DNA of 38,643 bases from a virus, in the IMG/VR virus record IMGVR_UViG_3300046499_000522, positions 1-38,643 of that record, one strand, 5' to 3'. A model generated the notes under the pieces. That model searched no databases and was not told where the DNA came from. It worked only from the letters and a program-made list of their open reading frames with translations. Position 1 is the stretch's first letter; the number at the start of each line of letters is the position of its first letter. Made by a program: the position numbers and the translations under genes. This document shows, piece after piece, positions 6,428 to 26,299 of the stretch.

Positions 6428-6628
6428 TCAAGCTGCGGCGCGTTCCTGCCGTTTCACGAGGATGGCGGTGACGTCGGGGACGGCGTAGTAGGGGTGCCGG
6501 TCGGTGCCGCCGGAGCGGGTGAGCTGGCCGCGGTAGACGAGGTTGCGAAGGGCGCCGGCACTGACGTCGAGGACTCGGCGGGTCTGCTCGGCGGTCAGGT
6601 GGCCGGGGCGAATGATCTGCGACTCCAT
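6428..6628 (-). CDS. Excisionase-like/MerR-type HTH protein
   Basis: The protein has 66 residues. LTAEQTRRVLDVSAGALRNL forms a helix-turn-helix, followed by YRGQLTRSGGTDRHPYYAVPDV, the wing of the AlpA/Xis (HTH_17) class. It is the last gene of the early operon, directly after the FtsK-like gene. A DNA-binding role is clear. A role as excision factor or as late-operon activator is inference from size, fold and position. The ATG at 6628 has GGAGG only one base upstream, so an alternative start is possible. Confidence 0.65.
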   Translation of the reverse strand: MESQIIRPGHLTAEQTRRVLDVSAGALRNLVYRGQLTRSGGTDRHPYYAVPDVTAILVKRQERAAA

Positions 6629-6758
6629 GCCTCCATGATGCGGCAGCGGTGTCGCTCGCGGGCCGTGCCCGGGAAGCCGACTACGGGCTGTTCTCGGGGC
6701 CCTGCGGCAGACCCCGAAACTCGAAACTTCCCAGTTCACAGCCGATATCGGGGGCGAA

Positions 6759-6805
6759 ACCGGTTTCGGATCAAGGTGAAACCGCAGCCTTGATCCGAAA
6801 CCGGT
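6759..6805. repeat. Perfect 18-bp inverted repeat after the FtsK-like gene
   Basis: The arms ACCGGTTTCGGATCAAGG (6759-6776) and its exact complement (6788-6805) flank an 11-base loop. GAAACCG occurs three times in the region, and the first copy is itself a 12-bp palindrome (6756-6767). It begins 11 bases beyond the translocase stop. It could be a terminator: on the minus strand the stem is trailed by TTTC. It could also be a recognition site for the translocase, by analogy with clt sites beside traB in Streptomyces plasmids. The surrounding 6629-6758 holds no gene. Confidence 0.8.
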
Positions 6806-6815
6806 CTGACGGGGT

Positions 6816-8957
6816 CTACTCGCCGTCTTCGGCGGCGGGCAGATCGGCGTACCGGAGGCCCTTGGCACCGCCGCAGCACTCGCGGATGGTGAGCTGTCGG
6901 GTGGACACCTTGAAGGGCTTGAGGGCGGCGCTGAGCGCGGTGGAGGCGCCTGCCGCGTCCATCTCGGTCCACGGCCGGTAGAGGTCGGCGCGGTACGCGG
7001 CGAGGGCCTCGACGAGCCGGTGGGAGTGGACCGTCTCGACTCCGTCCGGCCAGATGGCACGTAGGTGGTCGAGGATCGTCTCGACGTCCTGCTCCTCGAC
7101 CTGCGCGCCGATGGCCTGCCCGGTGAGGGTGCCGGCGGCGGTGCGCAGCGCCAGGGCGCGCTTGCCGATGTCCTCGGCTTCGGTCTGCTTGATGAACGCG
7201 GCGCGCACGGTGATGCCTTCGCGGCCGCGGGCGAGGATGCCGGTTCCCTGCTCGTCGATGCTGATGTCGGTGGCGCGCAGGCCGCGGTCGTAGGCGCCGG
7301 TCCCGAGGACGTTGTTGTTGGCGCGCCAGTCCATGACGGCAAGGCACAGGCGGGTCCCGACGGAGCTGGACACGGAGGACGGCAGCGACGGGGCGTCCGG
7401 GTTCTGGGTGAGCAGGATGAGGATGATGCCGTAGGCGCGGCCCTTCTTGATCAGGCGGGTGGCGAGGGCGGCGGCCTCTTCCTTGTACTCGGCGTGGGTG
7501 AACAGCTCCTGGACCTCGTCGATGACGATGACGCGCGGGCCGAGCTGCTGCTCGGGGTACTTCTCGGCGAGCGCGCGAGTGACGCGCCGGCCGTCGGGGA
7601 CCTCGCTGGCGGGCAGGCCCTTGATGAACTTGGCGCGCCGCTGGTACTCGGCGATCCCGGAGCGCATCCCGCCGAGGGCGGCCTCCAGGTCCTCGTCCTC
7701 GTCGCCGGACACGTACCGGTGGCAGACCGGCTTGACCGCGTCGAGGTCGCCCGAGCCCTTGAGCTCGTAGATCCACAGTTCGGCGGTGGGGTCGAGGGCG
7801 ACGCCGAGGACGATGGCGAGCGCGCACGAGGTCTTGCCGGAGCCGGGGATGCCTCCGACCAACAAATTCGAGTACATGAGGGTGATCTCGATGAGGTTGC
7901 CGCGCGGGTCGAAGCCGTAGGGCAGCGGCTCGTACACGTCGGCGGTGCCCTGCTTCATGAGCGGCCACAACTTGCGGCCGGCCTTGGCCGGGTCCCGCTG
8001 GGCGACCCAGAGCACGAGGCGCCCGGGGTGGGCGGTGCGGTCGACCGACGGCCACACGGTGGAGATGGGGCGGCGCATGGCGGCGGCGAGCGCCTCGCGC
8101 TTCTCCAGGACCTCGGCGGCCTTGATGCCCGGCGGGAGGTCGACCTCGGCGCGCCAGCCGGGCCCGTCGCGCATGACCTCGGCGGCGAACTCGACGCCCC
8201 GCTTGCCCTTCTTGCCCTCGATGCCGATCGCGGCGAGCGCGTCGATGACCTCGGTGGAGTCGAGGCGGCGCAGGATGTTCGTGGCGACGTAGCGGGTGAC
8301 CAGCGGCTTCCCGTCGCTCTTCTTGCCGTTGAGACCGATCAGGGTGGTGGCGGCGAGCGTCGCGGTGAGCGACCAGCCGGGGGCCAGGAAGCACCCGGTG
8401 AGGGCGGTGATGCCGGTGCCCGTGGCGACGGCCAGGGAGGCGATCCGGCGCGGCCGGACGCGGCGGGAGTGCTCGCGGGACAGGGAGAGCCACGCCTCGA
8501 TGTCCGCGCTGGCGGCGGCCTTGGCCTCGACGGGGCGGGCCTCGGTGTCGGCGACCCACTTGCCCCAGCGGATGACCATGCGGGCGAGGCCGCGGGGCGC
8601 GCGGGTGAGCAGGCGCAGGGCGTAGACGGGCAGGCGGATGGCGTGGAATGCGGTGACGTGGCCGTAGTAGGACGCGGTCCAGCGGGCGGCGTTGACGAAC
8701 TCGGCGGCGTTGCGCAGGAAGGTCGGGACGACGGGCGGGGCGTCGGCGAGGTAGGCCTGCCGCTCGGCGATCCAGGTCCCGGACGTGGCCTGCTCGGTGG
8801 GCGGGTCGACGGGGCGGGGGGCCGCGTCCTGGACGACGTCGATGATGGTTTCGGTGAGGGTGTCCTTGGCGTCCTCGGTGAAGGCGTGGGCGTCCTGGTT
8901 GGCGTCCGGGGCGCCCTGGGGGGCGTCCTTGTGGAGCTGGATCGTGGTGTCCGTCAT
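6816..8957 (-). CDS. FtsK/SpoIIIE-type DNA translocase, TraB-like
   Basis: The protein has 713 residues. After an acidic N-terminus come one or two hydrophobic segments (about 171-208), then the motor. Walker A is GGIPGSGKT (K375), Walker B is VIVIDE (476-481), and LTQNPD follows, as in the FtsK/SpoIIIE family. The last ~90 residues (ending LKPFKVSTRQLTIRECC..KGLRYADL) look like a winged helix. In AICEs and Streptomyces plasmids such proteins (TraB/TraSA) move double-stranded DNA between mycelia. It is preceded by small membrane proteins, as in those elements. A phage role such as DNA movement or segregation is also possible. The ATG at 8957 follows AGGAAG. Confidence 0.85.
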   Translation of the reverse strand: MTDTTIQLHKDAPQGAPDANQDAHAFTEDAKDTLTETIIDVVQDAAPRPVDPPTEQATSGTWIAERQAYLADAPPVVPTFLRNAAEFVNAARWTASYYGHVTAFHAIRLPVYALRLLTRAPRGLARMVIRWGKWVADTEARPVEAKAAASADIEAWLSLSREHSRRVRPRRIASLAVATGTGITALTGCFLAPGWSLTATLAATTLIGLNGKKSDGKPLVTRYVATNILRRLDSTEVIDALAAIGIEGKKGKRGVEFAAEVMRDGPGWRAEVDLPPGIKAAEVLEKREALAAAMRRPISTVWPSVDRTAHPGRLVLWVAQRDPAKAGRKLWPLMKQGTADVYEPLPYGFDPRGNLIEITLMYSNLLVGGIPGSGKTSCALAIVLGVALDPTAELWIYELKGSGDLDAVKPVCHRYVSGDEDEDLEAALGGMRSGIAEYQRRAKFIKGLPASEVPDGRRVTRALAEKYPEQQLGPRVIVIDEVQELFTHAEYKEEAAALATRLIKKGRAYGIILILLTQNPDAPSLPSSVSSSVGTRLCLAVMDWRANNNVLGTGAYDRGLRATDISIDEQGTGILARGREGITVRAAFIKQTEAEDIGKRALALRTAAGTLTGQAIGAQVEEQDVETILDHLRAIWPDGVETVHSHRLVEALAAYRADLYRPWTEMDAAGASTALSAALKPFKVSTRQLTIRECCGGAKGLRYADLPAAEDGE

Positions 8958-8993
8958 GCTGGTGGCTTCCTGCCTCTTGCTGGGGTACGGAGG

Positions 8994-9037
8994 CCCGGGG
9001 ACGGCGAGCTGCTTGGCGGTAGGACGCCGTCCCCGGG
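8994..9037 (-). terminator. 13-bp perfect hairpin (attenuator) before the FtsK-like gene
   Basis: CCCGGGGACGGCG (8994-9006) pairs exactly with 9025-9037 across an 18-base loop. It lies between the 56-residue gene and the translocase gene. There is no U-run, so partial termination or mRNA processing is more likely than a full stop. Confidence 0.6.
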
Positions 9038-9043
9038 GTGGAG

Positions 9044-9214
9044 CTACTTGCCGCGCGCGGCCCTCTTGCGGGCCTGCTCGCGGACGCGCTCGACGCGGCG
9101 GTCAATGTCGGGCTGGTGCTCGATGCCGGCGGCGGCCCGCTTCACGCCGTGCGCCTCGATGGCGACGATGCGGACCTTCTCCCAGACGGTCAGCTTCGGC
9201 TTCGGCTCACGCAT
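9044..9214 (-). CDS. Small basic hypothetical protein (56 aa)
   Basis: The protein begins MREPKPKLTVWEKVRIV and ends in an Arg/Lys-rich helix (VERVREQARKRAARGK). The ATG at 9214 overlaps the end of the preceding gene by 8 bases, and a TAG lies at 9044-9046. Dense basic residues suggest nucleic-acid or membrane-surface binding. No family is recognised. Confidence 0.6.
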   Translation of the reverse strand: MREPKPKLTVWEKVRIVAIEAHGVKRAAAGIEHQPDIDRRVERVREQARKRAARGK

Positions 9215-9416
9215 CGACGTCCTCCGTCTCGGGGAGCAGGCGGGCGATGTCGGCGTGGGCGCGGGCGATGTCCACCCACAGGGCGCCCGCGGCGGCGAGG
9301 GGCTGCGTCCTCTGGCGGGACTCGGTGCTGCGGGCGTGGATTTCGGCGGCTCGGGCGAGGCTGGTGGCCTTGTCCATCGCGGTGTTGGCCATGGTCAGGC
9401 GTTCTTCTCGGGTCAC
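9207..9416 (-). CDS. Small helical hypothetical protein (69 aa)
   Basis: A GTG at 9416 stands behind AGGAGAGAGACC, so the longer in-frame opening upstream is not used. The product is all-helical with alternating Arg and Ala-rich stretches and an acidic end (LLPETEDVDA). It sits in the block of small genes before the translocase. Function unknown. Confidence 0.6.
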   Translation of the reverse strand: MTREERLTMANTAMDKATSLARAAEIHARSTESRQRTQPLAAAGALWVDIARAHADIARLLPETEDVDA

Positions 9417-9436
9417 GGTCTCTCTCCTCGGGTTGC

Positions 9437-9487
9437 GGGCCGGACTGTTCCGGCCCCACCGCACCCGCACGGTCGTAACGGCCGTGC
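9437..9487 (-). terminator. Two tandem hairpins between small genes
   Basis: GGGCCGGA/TCCGGCCC with a 4-base loop (9437-9456) and GCACGG/CCGTGC with a 9-base loop (9467-9487) fill the 87-bp gap after the membrane-protein gene. Together they make a plausible attenuator on the minus strand. Confidence 0.5.
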
Positions 9488-9503
9488 AGGGCGGAAGGGC
9501 AGG

Positions 9504-9833
9504 TCAGCTTCTGCGGGACTGCGTCCACATGGACTTCAGGACGAGGACGCAGATCGTGAGGGCGACGACGACCAGGCCGAGGACGGCCGCGAGGATCGCG
9601 AATCCGAACACCACGAACATGACCAGGACGACGACCACAGTGAGCGCGAGCAGGCCGAGGCAGCCGCCCGCGATGTACGCGCCCCACGGGTGAGCCTTGA
9701 TGGGCTGCAACGGTGCGGCCGTCCGCCCCAGGTCAGCGGGGTTTTCACGGACCTCCGTGAAAACCGGCGCCGCGTACATCGGGTTGCCCGCCATGTCGTA
9801 TCCGATCTGCTGCCGCTGTACGGGCTCGGTCAC
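9504..9833 (-). CDS. Membrane protein, Spd-like
   Basis: The protein has 109 residues: a soluble N-terminus (MTEPVQRQQIGYDMAGNPMY), then a long hydrophobic region with two membrane spans (about 50-101) rich in Val, Leu and Gly, and a short basic tail. Layout and position match the Spd (plasmid spread) proteins found before traB genes in Streptomyces conjugative elements, though the sequence match is not specific. It starts by ATGA overlap with the 63-residue gene upstream. Confidence 0.55.
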   Translation of the reverse strand: MTEPVQRQQIGYDMAGNPMYAAPVFTEVRENPADLGRTAAPLQPIKAHPWGAYIAGGCLGLLALTVVVVLVMFVVFGFAILAAVLGLVVVALTICVLVLKSMWTQSRRS

Positions 9834-10021
9834 GACGCCGCCTTCTTCCTGCTGCCAGGAAAAATCCTGGTCAGCGGGCGCGCGGCGATGCCGAGGGCGA
9901 ACGGAATGACGAGGGGGCGCATCACTTCACCGCACGGGGAAGCGATGGCGGCGACGGGCGCCATGAGCGACGGGTACGTGACAAGCAGGCCGAGGACGGC
10001 GCCGAACAGGATGCGCGTCAT
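9830..10021 (-). CDS. Small membrane protein (63 aa)
   Basis: The N-terminal hydrophobic segment (ILFGAVLGLLVTYPSLMAPVAA) and a second shorter one (VIPFALGIAA) are followed by a basic tail (RKKAAS). The start overlaps the stop of the DUF2637 gene and the end overlaps the start of the next, so it is translationally coupled. No known family is recognised. It is probably part of the membrane set tied to the translocase. Confidence 0.6.
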   Translation of the reverse strand: MTRILFGAVLGLLVTYPSLMAPVAAIASPCGEVMRPLVIPFALGIAARPLTRIFPGSRKKAAS

Positions 10022-10881
10022 GCCGGGACCCCCTGGCGTTCGGGGAGGTCGTCCGGGTGGAACAGGTTGCGTCCTCGGGCGTCCTTGGCGAAGACGGTGA
10101 GGCGTCCCGTGGCTACCCAGCTACGGACGGTCGACGGGTCGATGTTGAACCACTCGGCGACCTGGGCGGACGTCATGAGGGGCGGGGTGGGCGGCGGCCC
10201 GTCCTCGGCGTCCTGCTCTGTCCCGGGCGGCAGTTCGGGCGTCCCGGTGGCGTCCTGCTGGTCCTCCCGTTCCAGGGTCACGGTGGGCAGCGGGCGGGCG
10301 ACGATCGGCAGGAGCCGGACGCCGGACGGTACGACCTCACGGACGGGTGGGACGCTCGGGACGGCGGGGGACGCGGTCGCGTCCTGGGTGTCCTGCGCGT
10401 CCTGGTGTGCGTCCGGCGGGCTGGCCGCGAGGTGCAGCAGGTGACCGACGACGGCGGGCGGGACCAGGCTGGTGACCGCGATCAAGACGGGCTGGTCGGC
10501 GATCACGTGCCCGGTGGTGATGAGGTGCGACACGACCTGGGCGGCCATGGCGAGGCCGAGGGCGAGGCACGCGCCGATGATCGCGGACCAGCGGCCACGG
10601 TCTCCTCGGCGGCGGGTGGAGGCGACGGCGGCCGCGATGCCCGCGTAGGCGGACAGGACGACCGGCATGCCGTAAGTGAAGGGATCCGCCCATCCGGCGG
10701 TCTCAGCGAGGTGGTACTCGCCGGGAGCACACATGAGGAGAGCGACGCCGAGGACGATGGGGCGGCCGCCGGCGGTGAGGCCGCGGACCCACAGCGGGGC
10801 GGACGGGCGGCGGCCGGTGTGCGGGGCGGTCCGCTTGAACAGGCGGGCCAGCCGGACGGCGGCGCGGCGGATGCGGCTCAC
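10018..10881 (-). CDS. DUF2637-like membrane protein fused to C-terminal HTH
   Basis: The protein has 287 residues. The N-terminal half carries four hydrophobic segments (about 32-50, 65-82, 95-115, 128-150), as in DUF2637 proteins common in actinomycete mobile elements. A flexible Asp/Gln/Thr/Pro linker follows. The last ~60 residues read MTSAQVAEWFNIDPSTVRSW, then ATGRLTVFAKDARGRNLFHPDDL, a MerR/Xis-type HTH with wing. A membrane-tethered DNA-binding protein is implied, possibly coupling the element's DNA to the translocase site. The GTG start at 10881 overlaps the upstream stop. Confidence 0.7.
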   Translation of the reverse strand: MSRIRRAAVRLARLFKRTAPHTGRRPSAPLWVRGLTAGGRPIVLGVALLMCAPGEYHLAETAGWADPFTYGMPVVLSAYAGIAAAVASTRRRGDRGRWSAIIGACLALGLAMAAQVVSHLITTGHVIADQPVLIAVTSLVPPAVVGHLLHLAASPPDAHQDAQDTQDATASPAVPSVPPVREVVPSGVRLLPIVARPLPTVTLEREDQQDATGTPELPPGTEQDAEDGPPPTPPLMTSAQVAEWFNIDPSTVRSWVATGRLTVFAKDARGRNLFHPDDLPERQGVPA

Positions 10882-11297
10882 TGGCCCTCACCGCCGTACC
10901 GGTTCGGCTCGCAGATGACGCAGACGTGTTCCGTGCCGCCGTCGGCGCAGTTGTCCGCGCACGACCGGCAGAACGGGGTGTCCTTGTGGCGGGCGCGGCC
11001 GTCGAACGTCGTGTCGCTCGCGTCGAACGGGCGGTGACAGCGGCGGCAGATGCTCTTGGCGCGCTCGTCGGCCTCGGCCTGCTCGGTGGTCATCCGCTTG
11101 CGGAGGAAGTCCACGTTCCAGCCGAGGTCCGCGGGGCTCTCGTCGAGCGCGGCACGGACGGTGGTCCGCACCCACGAGGCGCGCTCGCGCATCCGTCGGT
11201 CGTAGTCGTGGACGCTGTAGGGCAGGGTGATCGCTTCGAGGGTGGCTTCGAGCAGGGCTCGGAGGTCCTGGGCCTCGCTGGTGGTCTTCTCGGTCAT
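10878..11297 (-). CDS. Zinc-ribbon protein (139 aa)
   Basis: The N-terminal 70 residues are helical. The C-terminal half has CRRCHRPF, then CRSCADNCAD and CVIC, enough Cys pairs for one or two zinc ribbons. The ATG at 11297 overlaps the preceding stop as ATGA. Proteins like this are frequent in Streptomyces phage early operons. The role is unknown; nucleic-acid binding is likely. Confidence 0.65.
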   Translation of the reverse strand: MTEKTTSEAQDLRALLEATLEAITLPYSVHDYDRRMRERASWVRTTVRAALDESPADLGWNVDFLRKRMTTEQAEADERAKSICRRCHRPFDASDTTFDGRARHKDTPFCRSCADNCADGGTEHVCVICEPNRYGGEGQ

Positions 11298-11470
11298 CGC
11301 GCGGCCACCGCTTCGGAGGCGGAGGCGATCAGGTGGGCGTCATCGCGGTGGTCCTGGACGCGGCGGTCGGCGCTGCTTGCGTAGTCCTCGCGGCAGAGGC
11401 GGTGCAGCTCGGCGAGCTGCTTGGTCGGGGTGGTGCCGCGCTTGGGCGCGGACGTGGAAAGATCGGCCAT
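11294..11470 (-). CDS. Small hypothetical protein (58 aa)
   Basis: The ATG at 11470 follows AGGAGTCGGC, a clear ribosome site, so longer in-frame openings are discarded. The product starts MADLSTSAPKRGTTPTKQ, followed by a charged helix containing LHRLCREDYASSADRR. No family is recognised. The 100 bp upstream (11471-11570) hold an imperfect hairpin (CTCCC.GGTG/CACC.GGGAG near 11526-11551) and no gene. Confidence 0.55.
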   Translation of the reverse strand: MADLSTSAPKRGTTPTKQLAELHRLCREDYASSADRRVQDHRDDAHLIASASEAVAAR

Positions 11471-11570
11471 GCCGACTCCTGGTCTCGTCAGGATGTTCGG
11501 TAGAGGGTCGGGCGGTGCGATCGCCTCCCTGGTGTTCCAGCACCTGGGAGAGCTGCTGCCCGGCCCTCGT

Positions 11571-11780
11571 CTATGCGGTTGTGTACTTCTTGATCGCCTT
11601 CGCGACGGCGGTCCAGCTGAGTTCCAGCTGTTTCGCCAGGGCGTAGACACTCCCGAGTTCTTCGGCCCCTTCCTTCAGGGCTTCCGCTCGTCTCTTTCGG
11701 GCCTGCTCCGCCTGGCTGTCGAGCTGTTCCAGCAGCTCATCCTCCACGCGGATCCGGTCCCTCCATGGGGGCGTTTCCAC
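11571..11780 (-). CDS. Small HTH protein, possibly leaderless
   Basis: The product is 69 residues from the GTG at 11780: a charged coiled helix (ELLEQLDSQAEQARKRRAEALKEG) followed by a helix-turn-helix (VYALAKQLELSWTAVAKAIKKY). The frame is open back to an ATG at 11846 that overlaps the upstream gene, giving a 91-residue alternative. The GTG lies about 8 bases after a good -10 element, the layout of a leaderless transcript. A regulator acting within the early region is inferred. Confidence 0.6.
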   Translation of the reverse strand: METPPWRDRIRVEDELLEQLDSQAEQARKRRAEALKEGAEELGSVYALAKQLELSWTAVAKAIKKYTTA

Positions 11781-11787
11781 CTCTCCG

Positions 11788-11829: not shown

Positions 11830-11845
11830 GGGGCACCGGAGATCA

Positions 11846-15937: not shown

Positions 15938-16197
15938 TGGGGGCTGCCGAAGGGGTGCGAAGGGGTTGCGAAGGGGTTTGCGAAGGGGTCTGCGTAGGGG
16001 TTGACCTGCGGTGCGAAGGGGTCGAAGGGGTTTCGTGGTCCTGCTGTTGCATAAGAGGACTGCTGGTTTTCCATCTCCTTATGCGCGTAGGTGTTGGAAA
16101 ACCCCTTCGATCCCTTCGACTTGCAGGTCAAAGCCTTCGCAGACCCCTTCGCAAACCCCTTCGCAACCCCTTCGCACCCCTTCGCACGGGAGGTCAT
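15934..16197 (-). CDS. Open frame across the large inverted repeat (87 aa, repeats)
   Basis: An ATG overlaps the primase stop (ATGA) and the end overlaps the next start, so the frame is kept open and coupled. The product is made of repeats copied from the DNA palindrome: a basic half (GCEGVAKGFAKGSAK) and a Pro/Phe/Asn half (NPFDPFAPQVNPYADPFANP). Such composition argues that the DNA element, not the peptide, is what is selected, and that the frame keeps the element transparent to ribosomes. A real small protein cannot be excluded. Confidence 0.5.
   Translation of the reverse strand: MTSRAKGCEGVAKGFAKGSAKALTCKSKGSKGFSNTYAHKEMENQQSSYATAGPRNPFDPFAPQVNPYADPFANPFATPSHPFGSPQ
15948..16184. repeat. 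237-bp nested inverted repeat with iterons; candidate origin
   Basis: The outer 47 bases of each arm (15948-15994 and 16138-16184) are exact inverted copies. A further ~45 bp of each arm match imperfectly. Each arm holds tandem GCGAAGGGG units at 10-12 bp spacing, about six per arm. The ~62-bp centre (16036-16097) is AT-richer and has its own GCATAAG/CTTATGC pair (16049-16055, 16078-16084). It follows directly after the primase/helicase gene, where plasmid- and phage-type origins often lie. A replication origin bound by the prim-pol protein is inferred. Confidence 0.75.
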
Positions 16198-18647
16198 CGG
16201 GCACCGCCGAGAATGGCGAGCGCGAGGCCGCGGGTGACGGCCCGGCGGGTGCGGGAGTCCTTGTCCTGCTGGAAGCCCTGCTCCTGCAGGCGGATCGTGA
16301 ACGCCTTCATCGACATGGGGTGCCGGACGCCCGCGCGTTCGGCCCACGACTTGTAGCTGCCGTACAGCTGGCCGTTCTCGGTGACGGCGTCGAGAACCTC
16401 GTCGGTCTCCTCTTCCAGCCACGTCGCGAGCGGGTTGGACTGGGCGATGTGCTCGCGGGTCTTCGCGGTGACGGAGTCGGGCACGGCGAGGCCGCGCTGC
16501 TGCCAGTCGAGGCAGCCGCGGATGGCCCAGTTGAGGACGCCTGCCGCTTCGCGGGCGAGGATCTGTTCGGCCAGGCCCTGGATTCGCTTGGCGGGGGGCA
16601 CGATGACGTCCCAGCCGATGTCCTGGAGGCGGCGGGCCATGCTGTGGCTGCCGGATACGTCGGGCAGGTGGTTGGTTGCGAGGTGGATCTTTCCGACGGG
16701 CTTGAACTCGAAGAACTCGGCGTTCAGGAACCGGGCGGACACGGGGTCTTCACCGGTGAGCCGCTTGACGAGTTCCTCGTCGAGGGGCTTGCCTCGGCCT
16801 TCGGCGGTGCGTCCGGTCTCGGAGGTAGACAGGAGGCGTTTGCCGACCATGCGAGCGACGTCGTTGGGGATGCCGCCGTCGCCGTGCTTGGCCATGAGGG
16901 TGGAGGCGGGTACGGCCTGGGCGTAGTCGCCGAGGAGGGCCATGACGACGCGCATGAACACGCCTTTGCCGTTCTGGCCTTCGCCGTGGTGGATGAACAT
17001 GACCTGCTCGCCGGTGCAGGCGGTGAGGCTGTAGCCGACGACGCGGGCGAGGTAGGCGCGGCGGTCAGGATCGGGCATGACGCCTGCGAGGAACTTGTCC
17101 CACATGGGGCAGGTGGCGGTGGGGTCGTAGCAGATGGGTGACTGCTGCATGAGGTAGAGGCCGCGGGCGTGGGCGCGGAGGTCGCCGGTGGTGAGATCGA
17201 CGATGCCGTTGGCGACGTTGAGGAGCGTCTCCGGCTGGTCGAAGGCGTCCATGGTGGAGTGGACAACGGGGTAGGCCTGGAGGACGTCGCGGGCGGCGGC
17301 GAGCTTGGGCCGCATGCGCTGCTTGCGGGCCCAGGCGCGGAACTTCTCCTGCTCGCTGGCGGCCGGCTCTTTCGCCTTGGCGCCGGGTTCGGGCTGCGGC
17401 GCCTCGTCGCTGTAGTTCGGGGCCTCGTCCTCAAGCTGGTTGATGGTGTCGACGGCGCGGGTCCACACGCCGGTGTTGGCGCCCTTCAGGGTCCAGCGGC
17501 CTTGGTCGTAGTACGCCCAGCGTTCGATGTCGGCGAGCCACCGGATCTCGCTGCCGTACCGGTCGATAATGCGTTCGGCGTTGCCGAGGTCGTCCCATTC
17601 GCGGGCGGGCATCGGTGAGGGCAGGACGATCGGCGCTTCGACGGGCGCGGTCCAGGCGGGGCTGCTCGCGGTCGGGGGGGCGGGCTGCTGGGGGAGGAGT
17701 CCGGCGAAGCTGTTGCGGTCGCGGCCGACGGGGGGCCACGGGGTGCGGGGGTGGGCCATGCCTGCGGTGAGCCCGGAGTTGATGGTGGGCAGGGCGCGGC
17801 CGTCGGGGTGGTTGCCTGCGCGGGCGGCAGCAAGCAGCGTCTGCCGGGCCTCGCCCTCGGTGAGCGCACCGGCGCCGACGAGGGTGCCGATACTGAACGC
17901 GCTGGTGTTGATCTGGTTGTTCTGGTCGCCGTCCGTCGCGTGCGCGATGGCGTCGCATTCGGCCTGTACGGCTTTGCGGGTGTAGGCGTCGTGCCGGTCG
18001 ACGGGCAGCGTGACGACGTTGCTCGGGGGTGCGGTGGGTGCGGGTGCGGGCTTGGTCTGCAGCGCGGAGAGGAGCCAGGCGGGGGCGGCGACCGGAGGCT
18101 GATCGGGGTCGTCGAGTTCGTAGATGACGCCGGTGGCGTGCACGCTGCCGGGGCCGATGACGTAGGCGTTGCCTGCGCGGACGTCGCCGTCGAACTGGCC
18201 GCGCAGGATGCCGAGGCCGTTGCCGAGGGGGGCGTCGGCGGGGGCCCAGTAGTAATCGTGGTGGCCCTTGGCGGTGTGGACGCGCATGGTCGGGGTGTGC
18301 GGGTGTCCGAGGCGGGCGGCGGTGTCTTCGATGGCGCCGGGCCGGTCGGAGTCGACGACGAGCAGCTGCTCGCCAGCGGGGCCGCGGCAGGCGCCGACGG
18401 AGACTCCGACGTTGCGGAGCTGTCCGCCGAACAGGTCGATTGCCTGCTGTTCGGTGCGGGCGTAAGTGCGGGTGAACGTTACGGCGGGGTGCTTGCCGCG
18501 TTGGGTGCAGGTGGCGGGGTTGTGGCCCTGGCCGATGCCGGCGCACCGCTGCAGCCCGGGGTGGTCCACGGGAAAGACGGCGAAGCTGCGGCTGGTGAGC
18601 CACAGGGCGCCGTCGAGTGGCGTGTCGCGGACCGGTGCGGTGCTCAA
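16194..18647 (-). CDS. Prim-pol / D5-type helicase replication protein
   Basis: The protein has 817 residues. The N-terminal primase-polymerase domain (about 1-200) shows LLVVDSDRPG (metal-binding Asp99, Asp101), KGHHDYYW near residue 127 and a GDVRAGNAYVIGPGS strand. A linker follows. The C-terminal D5_N/SF3-like helicase has LYLMQQSP and Walker A GEGQNGKGVF at about residue 555, with LLSTSETG and HLATNHLPDV downstream. It primes and unwinds DNA for element replication. RepPP-type AICE initiators have the same design. The start is a TTG at 18647 with GAGGAG 9 bases upstream; no better start is visible. Confidence 0.88.
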   Translation of the reverse strand: MSTAPVRDTPLDGALWLTSRSFAVFPVDHPGLQRCAGIGQGHNPATCTQRGKHPAVTFTRTYARTEQQAIDLFGGQLRNVGVSVGACRGPAGEQLLVVDSDRPGAIEDTAARLGHPHTPTMRVHTAKGHHDYYWAPADAPLGNGLGILRGQFDGDVRAGNAYVIGPGSVHATGVIYELDDPDQPPVAAPAWLLSALQTKPAPAPTAPPSNVVTLPVDRHDAYTRKAVQAECDAIAHATDGDQNNQINTSAFSIGTLVGAGALTEGEARQTLLAAARAGNHPDGRALPTINSGLTAGMAHPRTPWPPVGRDRNSFAGLLPQQPAPPTASSPAWTAPVEAPIVLPSPMPAREWDDLGNAERIIDRYGSEIRWLADIERWAYYDQGRWTLKGANTGVWTRAVDTINQLEDEAPNYSDEAPQPEPGAKAKEPAASEQEKFRAWARKQRMRPKLAAARDVLQAYPVVHSTMDAFDQPETLLNVANGIVDLTTGDLRAHARGLYLMQQSPICYDPTATCPMWDKFLAGVMPDPDRRAYLARVVGYSLTACTGEQVMFIHHGEGQNGKGVFMRVVMALLGDYAQAVPASTLMAKHGDGGIPNDVARMVGKRLLSTSETGRTAEGRGKPLDEELVKRLTGEDPVSARFLNAEFFEFKPVGKIHLATNHLPDVSGSHSMARRLQDIGWDVIVPPAKRIQGLAEQILAREAAGVLNWAIRGCLDWQQRGLAVPDSVTAKTREHIAQSNPLATWLEEETDEVLDAVTENGQLYGSYKSWAERAGVRHPMSMKAFTIRLQEQGFQQDKDSRTRRAVTRGLALAILGGAR

Positions 18648-21383: not shown

Positions 21384-21475
21384 CAGGCTCCTCCCTTCGG
21401 GTTGGTGTGAGGCGCCGAGTCGTTGGGTCGTCCGGGCCGGAAAGCAGCGGGCGGCCCTTCGGCGCGTTCAGGGAG

Positions 21476-21655
21476 TCAGGCGGCGGTCGCCAACTGGTAG
21501 CTGCGCTGCCGCATCAGGAGCCGCTCGTAGGCGGCGGCCCGCTCCGGGCTCAGCCGTCCCGCCGCGTAGTCGGCGGCGATGTCGGCGAGCGCCTGGTCGA
21601 GCACGGCGCGTGCAGCGGCGTAGGCCTGGGCGCGGGTCACGGTCGGCGCGCTCAC
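21476..21655 (-). CDS. Small helical hypothetical protein (59 aa)
   Basis: A GTG overlaps the stop of the first early gene. The protein is two helices rich in Ala and Arg (TRAQAYAAARAVLDQALADIAADYAAGRLSPERAAAY). No family is recognised. The longer frame upstream is antisense noise. Confidence 0.55.
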   Translation of the reverse strand: MSAPTVTRAQAYAAARAVLDQALADIAADYAAGRLSPERAAAYERLLMRQRSYQLATAA

Positions 21656-21876
21656 ACCGGCGCCTTTGCACGTGCGCCCGGCTTGAGCAGTACGGCCATG
21701 GGCAAGCCGTAGATGAGCTCGACGCGAGCGGCGGTGTGCACGCTGGGTGCTCCGTGGCCGTGCCACAGGCGCCAGCCGGTCATCGTGCCGATGCCGAGCT
21801 TGGCCGACATCTGCCAGCTGTTCGGTTGGCCGGCGGCTGTGGCGGCTCTCTGTAGTGCTGTGCGGTCGTACCTCAC
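21652..21876 (-). CDS. Cro-like HTH regulator, first early gene
   Basis: The protein has 74 residues from a GTG at 21876. WQMSAKLGIGTMTGWRLWHG and the following helix form an HTH of the XRE/Cro type, and the rest is short. It is the first gene of the leftward operon, adjacent to a cluster of operators and opposite the repressor gene, the usual place of cro. A role in the lytic switch is inferred. Confidence 0.65.
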   Translation of the reverse strand: MRYDRTALQRAATAAGQPNSWQMSAKLGIGTMTGWRLWHGHGAPSVHTAARVELIYGLPMAVLLKPGARAKAPV

Positions 21877-21898
21877 TTAGGCATACCTCTCTCGTCCA

Positions 21899-21956
21899 GC
21901 AGGTAGCTACCTGCCGCAGTAGGTAGACGCTACCACTATCTACCGGGTGAGGTAGA
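21899..21956. promoter_or_regulatory. Cluster of three GGTAG/CTACC operators
   Basis: Site A is a perfect 16-bp palindrome GCAGGTAGCTACCTGC (21899-21914). Site B is GGTAG-ACG-CTACC (21922-21934). Site C is TCTACC-GGGTGA-GGTAGA (21939-21956). Centres are about 20-21 bp apart, two helical turns, so bound proteins would sit on one face. The cluster lies upstream of the leftward early operon. The core AGGTAGCTA recurs at the GntR promoter region (25989-25997). Confidence 0.75.
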
Positions 21957-22048
21957 TGAAAGAGGCATGAAGGGCCCATGATTACGGCAGCGTTCGATGG
22001 GGCAACCCTTGTTCGAATCTTTGGTCGAAATCCCGTGCGGGACATAGG

Positions 22049-22078
22049 TTGCGACGTCGAACAGGGCGGGGATAGTGT
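22049..22078 (+). promoter_or_regulatory. Repressor/integrase operon promoter (predicted)
   Basis: TTGCGA (22049-22054), an 18-base spacer and TAGTGT (22073-22078) match the Streptomyces vegetative promoter pattern. The ~95-base leader to the repressor contains a GGAGACC/GGTCTCC pair (22081-22087, 22120-22126) and GCGATA repeats around 22131-22166 that could be autoregulatory. No other gene is seen in the 302-bp gap 21877-22178. Confidence 0.5.
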
Positions 22079-22178
22079 GCGGAGACCATTTTCCCGGGAT
22101 ATGCCAACTCGCCCAGGAGGGTCTCCATGACGCGATAGCTACTTCTGCCGACCTATCACGCGCGATAACCTCGGCGGC

Positions 22179-22571
22179 ATGTCTACACACCAGACGGATG
22201 CCCAGCGCTTCGGCGCGTGGCTGGCCAGCCAACTCCAATCGAGGAGCTATGACCTTGGGCCCAGAGGCGGAGGGCGCGCGCGATTTGCACAAGACGCAGG
22301 CGTCAGCCCTCAAGCCCTTGGCAGGTGGCTCCGCGGCATTGAGCGCCCCAATACCAACGCCATCGAACAGGTCGCACGGCGCCTGGGTCTTCCCATCGCA
22401 CCGATGCTCGCAATGTGCGGCTACATCGACCCAGATGAGCTACCGGCCCGGGGGGACCGGACCATCACACAGCGTGAAGCCCTTGAGGCGCTGGGTGTCA
22501 CCAATCCAGCCCACCAGCAGGCTGTACTCACGATGATCAGCGCCCTCACAGGGGGGGCGAACACCAGCTAG
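22179..22571 (+). CDS. Phage repressor, XRE-type HTH
   Basis: The protein has 130 residues. The HTH (about 35-75) reads ARFAQDAGVSPQALGRWLRG, then TNAIEQVARRLGLP, typical of XRE repressors. The C-terminal half is short and has no peptidase motif, so it is not a LexA-type self-cleaving repressor. It is the first gene of the rightward lysogeny operon, opposite the early operon. The ribosome site in front of the ATG is weak (CTCGGCGGC), so expression may be low. Confidence 0.75.
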   Translation: MSTHQTDAQRFGAWLASQLQSRSYDLGPRGGGRARFAQDAGVSPQALGRWLRGIERPNTNAIEQVARRLGLPIAPMLAMCGYIDPDELPARGDRTITQREALEALGVTNPAHQQAVLTMISALTGGANTS

Positions 22572-22582
22572 GAGCGCACGAC

Positions 22583-22900
22583 ATGAGCCGTATTGATCTT
22601 CGCCCGCGCACCCGCTACATGCTTGCTGGCCTGGCGGGGCTCACCCTGATCGTGGGCATCGATATCCAGCTAACCGTCCGTGCCACCGGCGCCATCTCCA
22701 CGGCGTCCGACATTGGCCTCGCCCTCAGCATTCTGGGCACCCTGGGCCTTGCCTCCACTCTCCCGGCCTGCGCCCGGTCTTACTACCACTGGGCGCACGA
22801 CCGGGGGGTGACCTGCCACTCCCGGCAGTTGCGTCTCGACGCTGTGCTTGCTCCCCGTGACACTGCTGACGTGGTGCGCCTGGGGAAGCGCGCTAGATAG
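22583..22900 (+). CDS. Two-helix membrane protein of the lysogeny operon
   Basis: The protein has 105 residues with two spans (about 12-32 and 42-62), a short external loop and a basic soluble tail (SYYHWAHDRGVTCHSRQLRL...). The ATG at 22583 lies 11 bases after the repressor stop. Its place between repressor and integrase implies expression in the lysogen. Superinfection exclusion is a reasonable guess, not shown by the sequence. Confidence 0.65.
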   Translation: MSRIDLRPRTRYMLAGLAGLTLIVGIDIQLTVRATGAISTASDIGLALSILGTLGLASTLPACARSYYHWAHDRGVTCHSRQLRLDAVLAPRDTADVVRLGKRAR

Positions 22901-22919
22901 CGCACATTGCATTGCATCG

Positions 22920-22950
22920 AGGCCCCGGCGCTGTACTGCGACCGGGGCCT
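22920..22950. terminator. Perfect 9-bp hairpin before the integrase
   Basis: AGGCCCCGG (22920-22928) pairs with 22942-22950 across a 13-base loop. It stands between the membrane-protein stop and the integrase start, so it may limit integrase expression in the lysogen. Confidence 0.55.
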
Positions 22951-22970
22951 ACCCGTACCCGGAGCCCGCC

Positions 22971-24545
22971 ATGAGCACACCAGAGCCGTTCATCGGATAC
23001 ATCCGCGTCAGCACCTGGCGTGAGGAGAAGATCAGCCCGGAGATCCAGCGTGCTGCGATCACCGCATGGGCGCAGCAGACCGGACGCCGCATCATCGACT
23101 GGGTACCAGACCTGGACGTATCCGGGCGGCATTTCAAGCGGAAGATCATGGGCGCGATCCAGCGTGTCGAGCGACGCGAAGCCAAGGGGATCGCTGTCTG
23201 GAAGTACAGCCGGTTCGGCCGCGACGACTACGGCATCCAGATCAACCTGCGCCGCCTCGAACAGGCGGGCGGCAGGCTGGAGTCGGCGACGGAGCGGATC
23301 GACGCGACCACCGCCGTCGGTCGCCTGAGTCGACATGTGCAGTTCGGTATCGCGGAGTTCGAGTCGCGGCGCATCGGCGAGCAGTGGCAGGAAACCCACA
23401 AGCACCGCCTTGCTCAGGGTGTGCCGTCCGCCGGCCGTCCCCGCTTCGGCTACATCTGGCACCCGCGCCGCGTCCCCGACCCGGCCTCGCCCACCGGCTA
23501 CAACACCCAGCCCGAACTGTACGAGCCGCACTCCGAGTTGGCGCCGGTCGTCGCATCCCTTTACGCCCAGTACCTGGGCGGGACCGGCATGGTTGCCCTC
23601 GCTCAGCAGCTCAACGCCGTCGGCCACCAGACGACGCGCGGTGGGCCATGGGGGTATGACAGTCTCCTGCGCTACCTCGACTCCGGGTTCCCGGCCGGGA
23701 TGCTGCGTGTCCGCGACGATTGCGATTGCCCCAAGGCCGAGGGCCGCGGCTACAAGAGCTGCCAGCACTGGCGGTATACCGACGGTGCGCATCTGCCGAT
23801 CATCGGGTACGGCATCGACACCGATCCCACAGAACTGTGGAAGGCGTACCGGGAGCGGCGGTCCCTGGTCCGCAGCCAGCCGCCTCGCACGCGCCACGCC
23901 ACCTATGAGCTCACCGGCCTGGTGCGCTGCTGCCGCTGCGGTCACGCGATGTCGCCGAAACGGCGCGATGGCGGCCGGGATGCGGACTGGCGGTGCTCGC
24001 GTCGCGCCGGCGGCGTGCCATGCCCCGGCAGCACAGCGCCCGGCAGCTGGCTGCTGGCCGAGGTCGTGCTGCCCTTCATCCGGAAGGTAGCGGCCGGTGT
24101 GGACACGGCCCCCGCCACCATTCCCGTGCCACGGTCGGCCGTCCCCGATCCGGGGGTGCAGCGGACGCGTCTCTCCGTCGAGTCCGCGCGCCTCTCCGAC
24201 GCGCTGGGCAGGCTCACCGTCGACTACGCTCTCAACCCCGACCGGTACCCGGCCGACGCTTACGACCAGGCGGTGAGGCGGCTGGAGGCCGACCGCAAGC
24301 AGGTGCTGGCCGAGCTGGCGCAGTGTGAAGAGGAGAAGCCGGTGCGGACGGCGGCTGACTTCCAGCCGCTGGCGGCTGATCTGCTTGCGCAGTGGGAGGA
24401 GCCGAACCTCCTCACCGTCGTGACGAAGAACCTGCTGCTGCGTCAGCTGATGCGGTACGTGCAAGTGCTGCCTCGCCCGTCCCGCTACCAGGCTGCGGCG
24501 CGAGTGATCCCCGTGTGGGAGGAGGAACCCCCGCTCGTTCCGTAG
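22971..24545 (+). CDS. int: Large serine integrase
   Basis: The protein has 524 residues. The resolvase domain begins GYIRVSTWRE with catalytic Ser14, KYSRFGRD and EFESRRIGE. The recombinase domain (about 150-290) has PRFGYIWHP and a GTGMVALAQQLN helix. The zinc ribbon has cysteines at 320/323 (LVRCCRCGHAMSP), 342 and 351, and a helical C-terminal coil follows. It integrates the phage at attP/attB by strand cutting and 180-degree rotation. The ATG at 22971 follows CCCGGAGC; the frame upstream overlaps the previous gene and is not used. The insert CDCPKAEGRGYKSC (about 251-264) adds Cys residues before the ribbon. Confidence 0.95.
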   Translation: MSTPEPFIGYIRVSTWREEKISPEIQRAAITAWAQQTGRRIIDWVPDLDVSGRHFKRKIMGAIQRVERREAKGIAVWKYSRFGRDDYGIQINLRRLEQAGGRLESATERIDATTAVGRLSRHVQFGIAEFESRRIGEQWQETHKHRLAQGVPSAGRPRFGYIWHPRRVPDPASPTGYNTQPELYEPHSELAPVVASLYAQYLGGTGMVALAQQLNAVGHQTTRGGPWGYDSLLRYLDSGFPAGMLRVRDDCDCPKAEGRGYKSCQHWRYTDGAHLPIIGYGIDTDPTELWKAYRERRSLVRSQPPRTRHATYELTGLVRCCRCGHAMSPKRRDGGRDADWRCSRRAGGVPCPGSTAPGSWLLAEVVLPFIRKVAAGVDTAPATIPVPRSAVPDPGVQRTRLSVESARLSDALGRLTVDYALNPDRYPADAYDQAVRRLEADRKQVLAELAQCEEEKPVRTAADFQPLAADLLAQWEEPNLLTVVTKNLLLRQLMRYVQVLPRPSRYQAAARVIPVWEEEPPLVP

Positions 24546-24583
24546 CTGCTGTTGTGCCAGTTCGCGGGATGCGCGAGTGGCGG

Positions 24584-24617
24584 TTTGTAGGCGATGTCCG
24601 ACGGCATCGCCTACAAA
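24584..24617. other. Perfect 13-bp inverted repeat after int; candidate attP or terminator
   Basis: TTTGTAGGCGATG (24584-24596) and its exact complement (24605-24617) flank TCCGACGG. It lies 38 bp after the integrase stop, where serine-integrase attP sites often sit. A terminator role is less likely because a better terminator follows 50 bp later. Confidence 0.4.
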
Positions 24618-24665
24618 GTGGCAGAGTCTCTGACCTGATGAAACGTCGTTCTCGGACGACGAAGA

Positions 24666-24691
24666 GCCCCAGACGGTATGCCGTCTGGGGC
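24666..24691 (+). terminator. Terminator of the lysogeny operon
   Basis: GCCCCAGACGG/CCGTCTGGGGC with a 4-base TATG loop is followed by CCTGTCGTTTCT. It is a strong hairpin downstream of int and probably works in both directions. Confidence 0.75.
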
Positions 24692-24755
24692 CCTGTCGTT
24701 TCTGCGCCGGGATGTCTACGTGCCGCGGTTGCGGCCCCGATGCGGAACGTGAGCT

Positions 24756-24767
24756 ACCGTATACGGT
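24756..24767. promoter_or_regulatory. 12-bp palindrome upstream of the small XRE gene
   Basis: ACCGTATACGGT is a perfect palindrome about 85 bp before the XRE start, in the least GC-rich stretch of this gap (to 24815). It is a candidate autoregulatory operator. No gene is seen in 24546-24850. Confidence 0.5.
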
Positions 24768-24850
24768 CTGCACATATGATTTCAATGGCCAATGGGATTC
24801 GGCAACATTCTGCCGTGACAGGATGATCATGGGGCCGTGACCGTAGACGC

Positions 24851-25099
24851 GTGCTCGATCCCCCGTCCGGCCTCAGTGCGTTCCGGCGCCTACTCGCCGA
24901 TCACATTCGCGAGGCCCGTACCGGACGGCACCTGTCCCAAGAGCAGCTCGCCCATGCTGCCGGGCTGGCCCCCCGTACCATCGGCGCCATCGAGTCCGGT
25001 CGCACCGGCACCAGCACAGACAGCCTGTACGCCATCGCGCGCGCCCTTCAGGTGCCCGTTGCCCACCTGGTCGAGGACGAGGCCGAGCCCCGGCCGTAA
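24851..25099 (+). CDS. Small XRE regulator, partner-type of DUF397
   Basis: The protein has 82 residues. LSQEQLAHAAGLAPRTIGAIESGR followed by DSLYAIARALQVPVAHL is a full XRE HTH. The C-terminal binding domain (DUF5753) common in Streptomyces partners of DUF397 proteins is missing. The GTG start at 24851 lacks a clear ribosome site. It is convergent with the DUF397 gene. Confidence 0.75.
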   Translation: MLDPPSGLSAFRRLLADHIREARTGRHLSQEQLAHAAGLAPRTIGAIESGRTGTSTDSLYAIARALQVPVAHLVEDEAEPRP

Positions 25100-25130
25100 T
25101 GCCCAGCCGGGGCTCTCCTGCGGCGACGGA

Positions 25131-25328
25131 TCAGGCGCCGAGCGCCCCCGCCCTCACGCTGTCGATGAACGCGCCCCAGGCCGCGCCTGAGGCGACCGCC
25201 GCACCGCGGGGACGGTCCTTGGTGTCCCGGAAGAACGCCCCGCCGGTTGTGCGGGCGACCTCGACGCAGGCCCCGTTGCCGCCGCTGTAGCTCGACGTGC
25301 GCCAGGGCAGAGTGTTGCTGTCGTGCAT
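25131..25328 (-). CDS. DUF397 protein
   Basis: The protein has 65 residues, with the family signature WRTSSYSGGNGACVEVA near residue 9, FFRDTKDRP in the middle and AWGAFIDSVRAG at the end. In Streptomyces DUF397 proteins pair with XRE regulators (WhiJ/BldB-type loci) that influence development. Here the partner is convergent instead of co-transcribed. The ATG at 25328 marks the start of homology, and upstream codons are not part of the family. Confidence 0.88.
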   Translation of the reverse strand: MHDSNTLPWRTSSYSGGNGACVEVARTTGGAFFRDTKDRPRGAAVASGAAWGAFIDSVRAGALGA

Positions 25329-25386
25329 GCTGTGCCTTTCGGTTGTTCCTTGCTTACCGGCCCGGGTGACGCCGGGGCCGGGGTCT

Positions 25387-25584
25387 TTACGCCCACGTCC
25401 ACCCGGATGTGTCCGTGAGGCTGCGGCGGCCGTTGTTGTGGTCGATGTGCTGACCGTCATGGCCGGGCGGGCGGGTGCACCGGCCCGCCCCGCCGGGATT
25501 CCGGACCCAGCAGTAGCCCGCCGCCCGGCCCACCTGGAGGGACTTCTCCTCGTTGTCCGGGAATCCGGACTTCCGGCTGCTCAT
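25387..25584 (-). CDS. Small Cys/His protein (65 aa)
   Basis: The ATG at 25584 overlaps the preceding stop (ATGA). CWVRNPGGAGRCTRPPGHDGQHIDH looks like a metal-binding loop seen in short Streptomyces proteins (C..C..PPGH..H). It may be made with the upstream cysteine-rich protein. Function unknown. Confidence 0.6.
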   Translation of the reverse strand: MSSRKSGFPDNEEKSLQVGRAAGYCWVRNPGGAGRCTRPPGHDGQHIDHNNGRRSLTDTSGWTWA

Positions 25585-25910
25585 GCGGCTGCCCTGCCCT
25601 GCTTGGCGAGCTGCTGGAGCGCGTGCCCGTGGTCGCAGCCCTGGGCGGAGTCCTTGCATGTGCGGCAGTCCTGGGCGTGGTCCATGAGGGCCCGGTACGC
25701 GGTGCGGCCGGTGCAGGGGCGGCAGCCGCGGGGGAAGTGGCGCACGCCGTCGACGACGTGCTCGCCGAGCAGGACGGCCTCTCCGGCGGTGAGGGGGCCG
25801 GCGCACCAGATGCAGTCCGCGCCGCGGGCCTGCCTGGCGGTGATGTTCTCGGTGGGGATCGCCAGTAGCTCCTCTGTGGCGATCGCTGGTGGGGCGGTAC
25901 GGTGCTGCAT
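25581..25910 (-). CDS. Cysteine-rich zinc protein (109 aa)
   Basis: The ATG at 25910 follows GGGAG. The protein has CIWCAGPLTAGEAVLL, a treble-clef-like knuckle, then CRPC and CRTCKDSAQGCDHG. It probably binds two zinc ions. It is transcribed leftward from the region shared with the GntR gene. No function is recognised. Confidence 0.65.
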   Translation of the reverse strand: MQHRTAPPAIATEELLAIPTENITARQARGADCIWCAGPLTAGEAVLLGEHVVDGVRHFPRGCRPCTGRTAYRALMDHAQDCRTCKDSAQGCDHGHALQQLAKQGRAAA

Positions 25911-25980
25911 GTCGACTCCCAACAGTCGTCCACGCCCCCGAGCCCGGCCAGGCTGCGGGGGTGCTGTGTGTCCTCGCAGC

Positions 25981-26020
25981 GTAGCCCTAGGTAGCTAGGG
26001 TAGCTAGGCGTGTCAGGCAA
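25981..26020. promoter_or_regulatory. Divergent promoter region with GTAGCTAGG repeats
   Basis: GTAGCTAGG occurs twice in tandem (25991-25999, 26000-26008) after a GTAGCCCTAG. CCCTAG/CTAGGG forms an inverted repeat. On the minus strand TTGCCT (26020-26015), a 17-base spacer and TAGCTA (25997-25992) could be a promoter for the cysteine-rich gene. On the plus strand TAGGGT (25996-26001) is a possible -10 for the GntR gene. The core AGGTAGCTA matches the operator cluster near 21.9 kb. Confidence 0.6.
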
Positions 26021-26062
26021 TCTCGTCTCGCCGGGTCAGCCTGTCGCGCCTAGCGTCGGATC

Positions 26063-26299
26063 ATGGACTGGAAGCCGGACGTGCCGCGGTGGCGGCAGGT
26101 GTACGAGGTCATTGAGGCGCGGATCGCGGACGGCACCTACGCCCCGGGCGCACAGCTGCCGGGCGTCCTGGCCATCCATGCCGAGTTCGGCATCGCGCAG
26201 ATGACCGCGCGGCGGGTGCTCTCCGAGCTGCGGGACGCGGGCCTTGCGCAAATGCAGCCGGGTATCGGGACGTTCGTGACCGAGCTGCCCAAGCCGTAA
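26063..26299 (+). CDS. Small GntR-type winged-helix regulator
   Basis: The protein has 78 residues, consisting only of the GntR DNA-binding domain: VYEVIEARIADGTYAPGAQLPG, IAQMTARRVLSELRDAGL and QPGIGTFV. There is no effector domain. KorSA of pSAM2 and similar short or full-length GntR proteins control transfer and replication in AICEs. Autoregulation through the GTAGCTAGG repeats 55 bp upstream is inferred. Confidence 0.8.
   Translation: MDWKPDVPRWRQVYEVIEARIADGTYAPGAQLPGVLAIHAEFGIAQMTARRVLSELRDAGLAQMQPGIGTFVTELPKP

Follow-up and report, generated by a model that had tools for sequence, protein, structure and literature searches.

A putative AICE-type transfer cassette with a predicted clt-type site in a temperate siphophage of Streptomyces-like bacteria

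Why should a phage that encodes its own virion also carry a DNA translocase of the kind used for conjugation? The question is raised by the virus record IMGVR_UViG_3300046499_000522, whose whole stretch of 38,643 bases was analysed here (the window) and which encodes an FtsK-type ATPase among the genes of a siphophage. An earlier reading made from the letters and open reading frames (the sequence-only reading) had assigned this protein to the type found in actinomycete integrative and conjugative elements (AICEs). It did not mention the most telling feature of the window, a cluster of repeats at 6712-6806. We consider it probable that a temperate siphophage acquired an AICE-type transfer cassette as one unit, consisting of the translocase gene and its loading site, for spread without virions. 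The two parts of the cassette are as follows.

6816..8957, minus strand: FtsK/TraB-type DNA translocase, 713 aa, with a predicted C-terminal winged helix (Pfam/PHROG, tree with AICE Tra proteins, C-terminal model, dN/dS)
6712..6806, minus strand: clt-like site of direct and inverted GGTTTCG(G) repeats, 95 bp, non-coding, directly 3' of the translocase stop (conservation, motif clustering)

The translocase and its relatives

The translocase gene is placed between the early genes and the terminase gene, beside the packaging genes. The protein exceeded the curated cut-off of the Pfam family FtsK_SpoIIIE (E 7e-7) and matched the FtsK/SpoIIIE PHROG (E 6e-30), confirming the 713-residue FtsK-type ATPase described from the sequence, with its Walker A motif GGIPGSGKT at residues 368-376. 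The sequence also resembles FtsK motor structures in the PDB. The ratio of nonsynonymous to synonymous substitution (dN/dS) against relatives was 0.20-0.46, and the gene is therefore under purifying selection, as are its motor motifs. The full-length structure model was poor (predicted local distance difference test, pLDDT, 52) and the C-terminal domain alone was used; by the order of its secondary-structure elements (H-E-H-H-E-E) this domain models as a winged helix, with a core pLDDT of 84-90.

A search of 247 Streptomyces genomes detected many full-length relatives at 36-44% identity, and 40 stretches, including FtsK and EccC controls, were taken for comparison. Most of these showed the canonical AICE order (GntR, DUF2637, RRQRL protein, FtsK, Prim-Pol, tyrosine integrase) and had no phage head genes, while a more distant pair, L109/L110, was phage-like, with portal and terminase genes in the flank of L110. 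The closest non-phage relatives, 73% identical to the translocase of the window, were carried by the AICEs L056 and L059. The layout of L056 is the classic one of an AICE, in which genes for GntR-UTRA, DUF6284, translocase, Prim-Pol, RepAM (DUF3631) and tyrosine integrase are followed by a chromosomal-type glycosidase gene. The L059 translocase lies among DUF2637, DUF3987 and integrase genes, and no structural phage family was found there when its families were scanned pooled with those of L057.

In the tree, the clade of the window took in L056 and L059. The phage L134 stood next to an AICE plasmid of S. decoyicus (74% identity) and the phage L130 next to L128; separate branches held the Pseudonocardia phage-plasmids L003 and L068. 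The approximately unbiased (AU) test rejected a single common phage clade (p-AU 5.8e-7), and also a grouping of window-type phages that excluded L056 and L059 (p-AU 5e-4). The trees were quick ones with some long branches, and the AU groups were picked after the first tree had been seen; L128, labelled an AICE in one tree without rep and int genes being seen, was omitted from the AU tests. These results indicated that the translocase belongs to the Tra family of AICEs and plasmids, the phage members standing at several separate places in the AICE tree. Together with the adjoining clt-like site, they bore out the AICE type first proposed from the sequence. The S. decoyicus plasmid record itself (L069, NZ_CP107886, 29.1 kb) proved to contain two head-to-tail copies of a 14.6-kb AICE, which may be a genuine dimer or an artefact of assembly.

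Close relatives (62-95%) were also found at 61 loci, 41 of them on viral contigs and 20 in genomes. In the stretch examined, 40 or more of the loci had genes for terminase, portal, protease, capsid or tape measure, typically in the order helix-turn-helix (HTH) membrane protein, translocase, HNH, terminase, portal, protease, capsid. At many loci the terminase or portal was 28-35% identical to that of the window, yet the translocase was 83-93% identical; the structural genes are thus much more variable than the translocase, a gene common to otherwise different phages. The finished chromosome of S. scabiei 87.22 holds the translocase, terminase, capsid, tape measure and tyrosine integrases in one prophage-like region, so the linkage of translocase and phage is no assembly error. 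The family was frequent in prophages and uncultured phage contigs and nearly absent from 50,697 cultured phage records, where the single relative was a distant one in Gilgamesh (27%). Clustering with phage-only proteins of lytic phages, which the sequence-only reading had named as the outcome that would speak against it, was accordingly not seen.

The repeat site and its exchange with the gene

The conserved 95-bp GGTTTCG(G) repeat cluster directly 3' of the translocase gene, which reads GACCGGTTTCGGATCAAGGCTGCGGTTTCACCTTGATCCGAAACCGGTTTCGCCCCCGATATCGGCTGTGAACTGGGAAGTTTCGAGTTTCGGGG on the minus strand, is new in this analysis. Almost every phage of the group has kept it, as have the AICEs L056 and L059; in L050, the motifs lie about 550 bp further on. 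Majority-base conservation after the translocase gene was about 0.8-0.9 over ~100 bp and then 0.60-0.74, and six motifs occurred within 115 bp, compared with at most three in 300 Markov shuffles. As a positive control, the same extraction applied to pSVH1 recovered repeated GACCCGGA, which we take to be the 8-mer recognised by TraB, immediately after traB. Other AICE clades have repeats of their own at the same place and in a similar layout (GCTAGCG, GCTAGGTC, GTAGAGGGG). The TraB protein of pSVH1 recognises repeated 8-bp motifs via its C-terminal winged helix (PMC3583192, PMC4170104), and the clt of pWTY27 has been mapped to 16 bp of the traA end and the adjoining 159 bp (PMC3583192). A repeat cluster adjoining a tra gene, by which a clt is recognised in sequence, is present in the window, and 6712-6806 is a predicted clt-type site.

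The association of site and gene was also seen with the 15-mer CCGAAACCGGTTTCG. In the viral collection, the 15-mer lies 23-110 bp beyond the end of the match in all contigs that carry it and also encode a translocase relative (45/45); the remaining 53 loci, mostly of lower GC content and without a translocase, are as chance would give in a collection that large. The 15-mer occurred in 13 of the 247 Streptomyces genomes and adjoined a window-type translocase or a fragment of one in nine of the 13 (e.g. G222, G001, G098, G094), leaving four genomes as compared with three for a reversed control pattern. The site contains a strong hairpin (z -5.9). No terminator-like T-tract was found at this hairpin, and the phages L033 and L034 keep the repeats without a long hairpin, so that protein binding is favoured over termination. 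These two near-identical phages differ in the first 60 bases past the translocase stop, where an inner segment of the site is inverted between inverted GGTTTC repeats.

Three readings of sequence patterns were considered and rejected. Over the whole window, GGTTTCGG gave 33 matches against 34.5 expected, and this lack of enrichment ruled out a polarity signal like the FtsK-orienting polar sequences (KOPS), the local cluster alone being unusual. Clusters of the 8-mer CAGGACGC near the gene, detected by an unbiased search, had the look of repeats coding for Gln-Asp-Ala and showed no conservation as a site, and the enrichment of GCAGGTCA formed no consistent cluster.

Phages of the packaging lineage of the window were collected by terminase similarity. 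In L130 (terminase 92%, DUF6257 protein 89%), the first dozen residues of the translocase (262-2376) match those of the window and the remainder is a different Tra (30%); past its stop codon are GGGAGGC repeats resembling those of L128. L134 (terminase 81%) encodes a Tra (60-1442) with 74% identity to the one in the S. decoyicus AICE plasmid, and the repeats after it are of the GTAGAGGGG type, as in the S. decoyicus AICE clade. A fourth translocase-like type occupies the slot in L136 (3264-5402), without such repeats directly after it, and no FtsK_SpoIIIE match was obtained in the near-full-length records L137 and L129, a virus record being possibly a fragment. Judging from these sequences, the gene tends to travel with its site and some phages have nothing in the slot, and the element appears to be an exchangeable tra+clt cassette. 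The joint movement and the sometimes empty slot argue against an essential role in packaging and for a module acting on its own DNA. The alternative offered by the sequence-only reading, phage DNA handling, is weakened, since within its packaging lineage the cassette seems to be accessory and is exchanged together with its site.

The remainder of the phage genome

The record has a direct terminal repeat of 74 bp, and the HK97-type capsid gene is uninterrupted across the joined ends once this repeat is counted singly; the window is therefore a complete, circularly assembled temperate siphophage genome of about 38.57 kb. A chimeric assembly was ruled out by the terminal repeat, the capsid gene over the ends and the same linkage on the complete S. 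scabiei 87.22 chromosome. One genome holds terminase, portal, protease, capsid, tape measure, endolysin and integrase genes, the set that marks a temperate siphophage with an HK97-type head, along with a head-tail adaptor, tail genes common to phages and two XRE-type proteins. The GC content is 65-75%, translocase relatives are located in Streptomyces and Actinomadura genomes, and the hosts are Streptomyces-like bacteria.

1..1150 and the rest at ~38472-38569, minus strand: major capsid protein, spanning the circular genome ends (Pfam Phage_capsid, E 8e-51)
1226..1942, minus strand: head maturation protease (PHROG 80, E 2e-36)
1894..3045, minus strand: HK97-type portal protein (TIGR01537 above cut-off; PHROG 12)
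3059..4699, minus strand: terminase large subunit (PHROG 9, E 9e-75)
26926..27741, minus strand: endolysin (PHROG 9589, E 2e-28)
31208..34753, minus strand: tape measure protein (size, position, phage relatives; no Pfam match)

Between HNH and terminase, at 5005-5442, a small P-loop protein (VLIVVTGPPAAGKS) is encoded, conserved up to 92-95% in phages of the window's packaging lineage.

The translocase gene is flanked by the following genes.

6428..6628, minus strand: 66-aa MerR/excisionase-like HTH protein, beyond the repeat site (PHROG 2474, E 3e-8)
9044..9214, minus strand: DUF6257 protein, encoded immediately before the translocase, an arrangement also found in AICEs (Pfam, E 1.9e-7)
9207..9470, minus strand: small conserved protein beside the translocase in many phages (tblastn in relatives 38-55%; no family match)
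9504..9833, minus strand: small membrane protein, spread-gene-like by position only (hydropathy; kept in some relatives)
9830..10021, minus strand: small membrane protein (hydropathy)
10018..10881, minus strand: membrane protein with a C-terminal HTH, in the slot of the AICE SpdB2/DUF2637 gene (HTH_17, E 2.5e-5; BldC-like)

The DUF6257-FtsK neighbourhood is common to the window and AICE plasmids: the DUF6257 protein is 39% identical to the one upstream of FtsK in the AICE plasmid L149, and such a protein is also present in the S. decoyicus plasmid. Hydropathy agreed with the small membrane proteins predicted earlier upstream of the translocase (two, at 9504-9833 and 9830-10021), and the Xis-like HTH protein expected after it corresponds to the 66-aa MerR-type protein at 6428-6628. 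The supposed DUF2637-HTH protein (10018-10881), a relative of which occurs in L110, does have hydrophobic segments and an HTH_17/BldC-like tail, but DUF2637 was not found in it by Pfam search, and direct BLAST against the DUF2637-region protein of L059 gave no match.

Replication, integration and regulation are represented by three genes.

16194..18647, minus strand: Prim-Pol and D5 helicase in a single-chain phage/P4-type replicase, 817 aa (Pfam; PHROG 1156, E 1e-116; TIGR01613 above cut-off)
22971..24545, plus strand: large serine integrase (Resolvase, Recombinase, Zn_ribbon_recom)
26063..26299, plus strand: 78-aa GntR HTH protein without UTRA domain, not KorSA-like (Pfam GntR, E 9e-17)

All three had been recognised from the sequence and are real by their Pfam matches, and the integrase indicates that the element probably integrates. 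The AICE-type assignments given to two of them did not hold. In place of a RepPP-like replication protein, the window has one 817-aa phage/P4-type chain, as against the split Prim-Pol and RepAM of L056, and the 78-aa GntR differs from the 250-aa GntR-UTRA regulator of L056 that a KorSA counterpart would resemble. With a phage/P4-type replicase and a GntR without UTRA, only the transfer module of the window is AICE-like. Just 3' of the primase-helicase gene, a 12-bp unit (GGGGTTTGCGAA, with its complement) is repeated in two mutually facing arrays at 15948-16032 and 16134-16186, which look like an iteron-like candidate replication origin and not a clt.

Function of the cassette and its meaning

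In AICEs and small Streptomyces plasmids, one FtsK-like protein and a clt are enough for double-stranded DNA transfer (PMC3218068, PMC3583192), and in pWTY27 a single tra gene plus clt suffices (PMC3583192). By analogy, the most likely use of the cassette is double-stranded DNA transfer or spread between hyphae. Following the example of pSVH1 TraB, we infer that the translocase would bind the GGTTTCG(G) repeats by its C-terminal winged helix and assemble there as a hexamer. Double-stranded phage DNA, whether excised or replicating, would then be pumped across septa or into an adjacent hypha, by which the prophage would gain a route of spread without virions.

Several results weigh against this proposal. 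Of the hydrophobic segments described earlier in the translocase, hydropathy analysis gave only weak transmembrane segments, the low-confidence full-length model placing helices at residues 153-191 and 194-210. The winged-helix-like end kept its topology in the model, but Foldseek of the modelled domain against the PDB gave no significant fold match. Family scans of the window proteins detected neither an AICE-type replication module (RepSA, RepAM, split Prim-Pol/RepPP) nor a Kor-type (KorSA-type GntR-UTRA) regulator, and the translocase of the P. alni phage-plasmid L003 (pPaSha2) has no repeats right after its gene.

Among other explanations, the translocase may serve the prophage or its excised circle inside one mycelium, moving DNA across cross-walls or into spore compartments from the same loading site, with no transfer between mycelia. 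This is unlikely, though not negligibly so: it agrees with the FtsK/SpoIIIE homology, such spread is normal in the AICE life cycle and the site is equally suited to it, whereas the closest non-phage relatives are AICE transfer proteins and tra+clt is the minimal transfer unit (PMC3583192). We give little credence to the cassette being mainly a weapon or shield, in which Tra expression or clt decoys would disturb co-resident AICEs or competing phages. The variety of alternative alleles found in one slot resembles arms-race turnover and plasmid tra genes can be toxic without their repressor, but a complete conserved cis site travelling with the gene exceeds the needs of interference, and the motor motifs are under purifying selection. 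Slightly less credible still is lytic-cycle DNA handling (concatemer processing, packaging help or uptake of ejected DNA, with the repeats as a loading or termination signal), for although the gene stands directly before HNH and terminase in nearly all relatives, Gilgamesh, one lytic-type phage record, has an FtsK-like protein and the site has a strong hairpin, phages whose terminase is 77-93% identical either lack the cassette or have unrelated Tra types in its place, the family is almost absent from cultured phages, the same gene and site occur in AICEs without phage genes, and the hairpin has neither a T-tract nor persistence in L033/L034.

Transfer of double-stranded DNA thus remains our preferred reading, and we lean, with less assurance than for the cassette itself, towards a wider one: temperate phages of Streptomyces and Actinomadura, forming a large and mosaic group, would spread in two ways, by virions and by single-protein double-stranded DNA conjugation, exchanging tra+clt cassettes with AICEs via one genomic slot.

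Comparison with known systems set the window apart from each of them. FtsK/SpoIIIE-type AICEs (PMC3218068; here L056, L059 and plasmid L149) share the translocase family, the 3' repeat cluster, an integrase and Prim-Pol and, in L149, the DUF6257-FtsK order; the window differs in its complete virion module, single-chain P4-type replicase, serine integrase and lack of a GntR-UTRA regulator. The TraB/clt systems of pSVH1 and pWTY27 (PMC3583192, PMC4170104) likewise have one FtsK-like translocase, a C-terminal winged helix (modelled in the window) and a repeat cluster at the 3' end of the gene, but the window's translocase is only ~32% identical to pSVH1 TraB over the motor, has a different repeat and is phage-borne, with a predicted role in transfer. 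The Pseudonocardia circular phage-plasmids pPaSha2 (L003) and NZ_CP053567 (L068) combine capsid/terminase genes with DUF2637 and an FtsK-type translocase, although their translocases lie on separate branches and pPaSha2 lacks the adjoining repeats. L068 (27.4 kb), with capsid, protease, terminase, DUF2637, FtsK, Prim-Pol and integrase genes and CTGGTCAGG-type repeats after the FtsK gene, is a compact phage-AICE hybrid.

The Streptomyces plasmid-phages pZL12 and pFP4 conjugate, as cited in PMC4170104 and PMC3583192, and resemble the window as phage genomes also holding a transfer function (predicted from sequence in the window). pZL12 is 90 kb and plasmid-maintained, whereas the window is a 38.6-kb integrating siphophage with an AICE Tra and a clt-like site. 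No relative of the translocase was found in pZL12 at the sensitivity of the cultured-phage search, and pZL12 was ruled out as the cassette source, its Tra3-like protein being a DciA-domain protein and not FtsK. Conjugating Streptomyces plasmid-phages are thus already known; the widespread siphophage variant with AICE tra and a clt-like site is new, and in the searchable literature no widespread group of temperate siphophages was found to be described as carrying AICE tra+clt cassettes.

The operational definition of an AICE asks for Int, an FtsK-type Tra and Rep/Prim-Pol inside 30-60 kb (PMC3218068), and PF07508, PF01580 and PF09250 were all found in the window. The usual AICE criteria would therefore label such a phage an AICE, whereas phage tools see a phage only. 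The predicted site opens the question of transfer to direct testing, and the paired Tra/repeat variants offer a ready-made data set on site recognition by TraB-type translocases. If the cassette works, a common actinomycete prophage group would have mating as a second route of spread beside infection, and prophage host range, gene flow and superinfection in Streptomyces would be seen differently. If the two-mode reading is true, the boundary between a phage and an integrative-conjugative element would depend on the cassettes that it currently holds.

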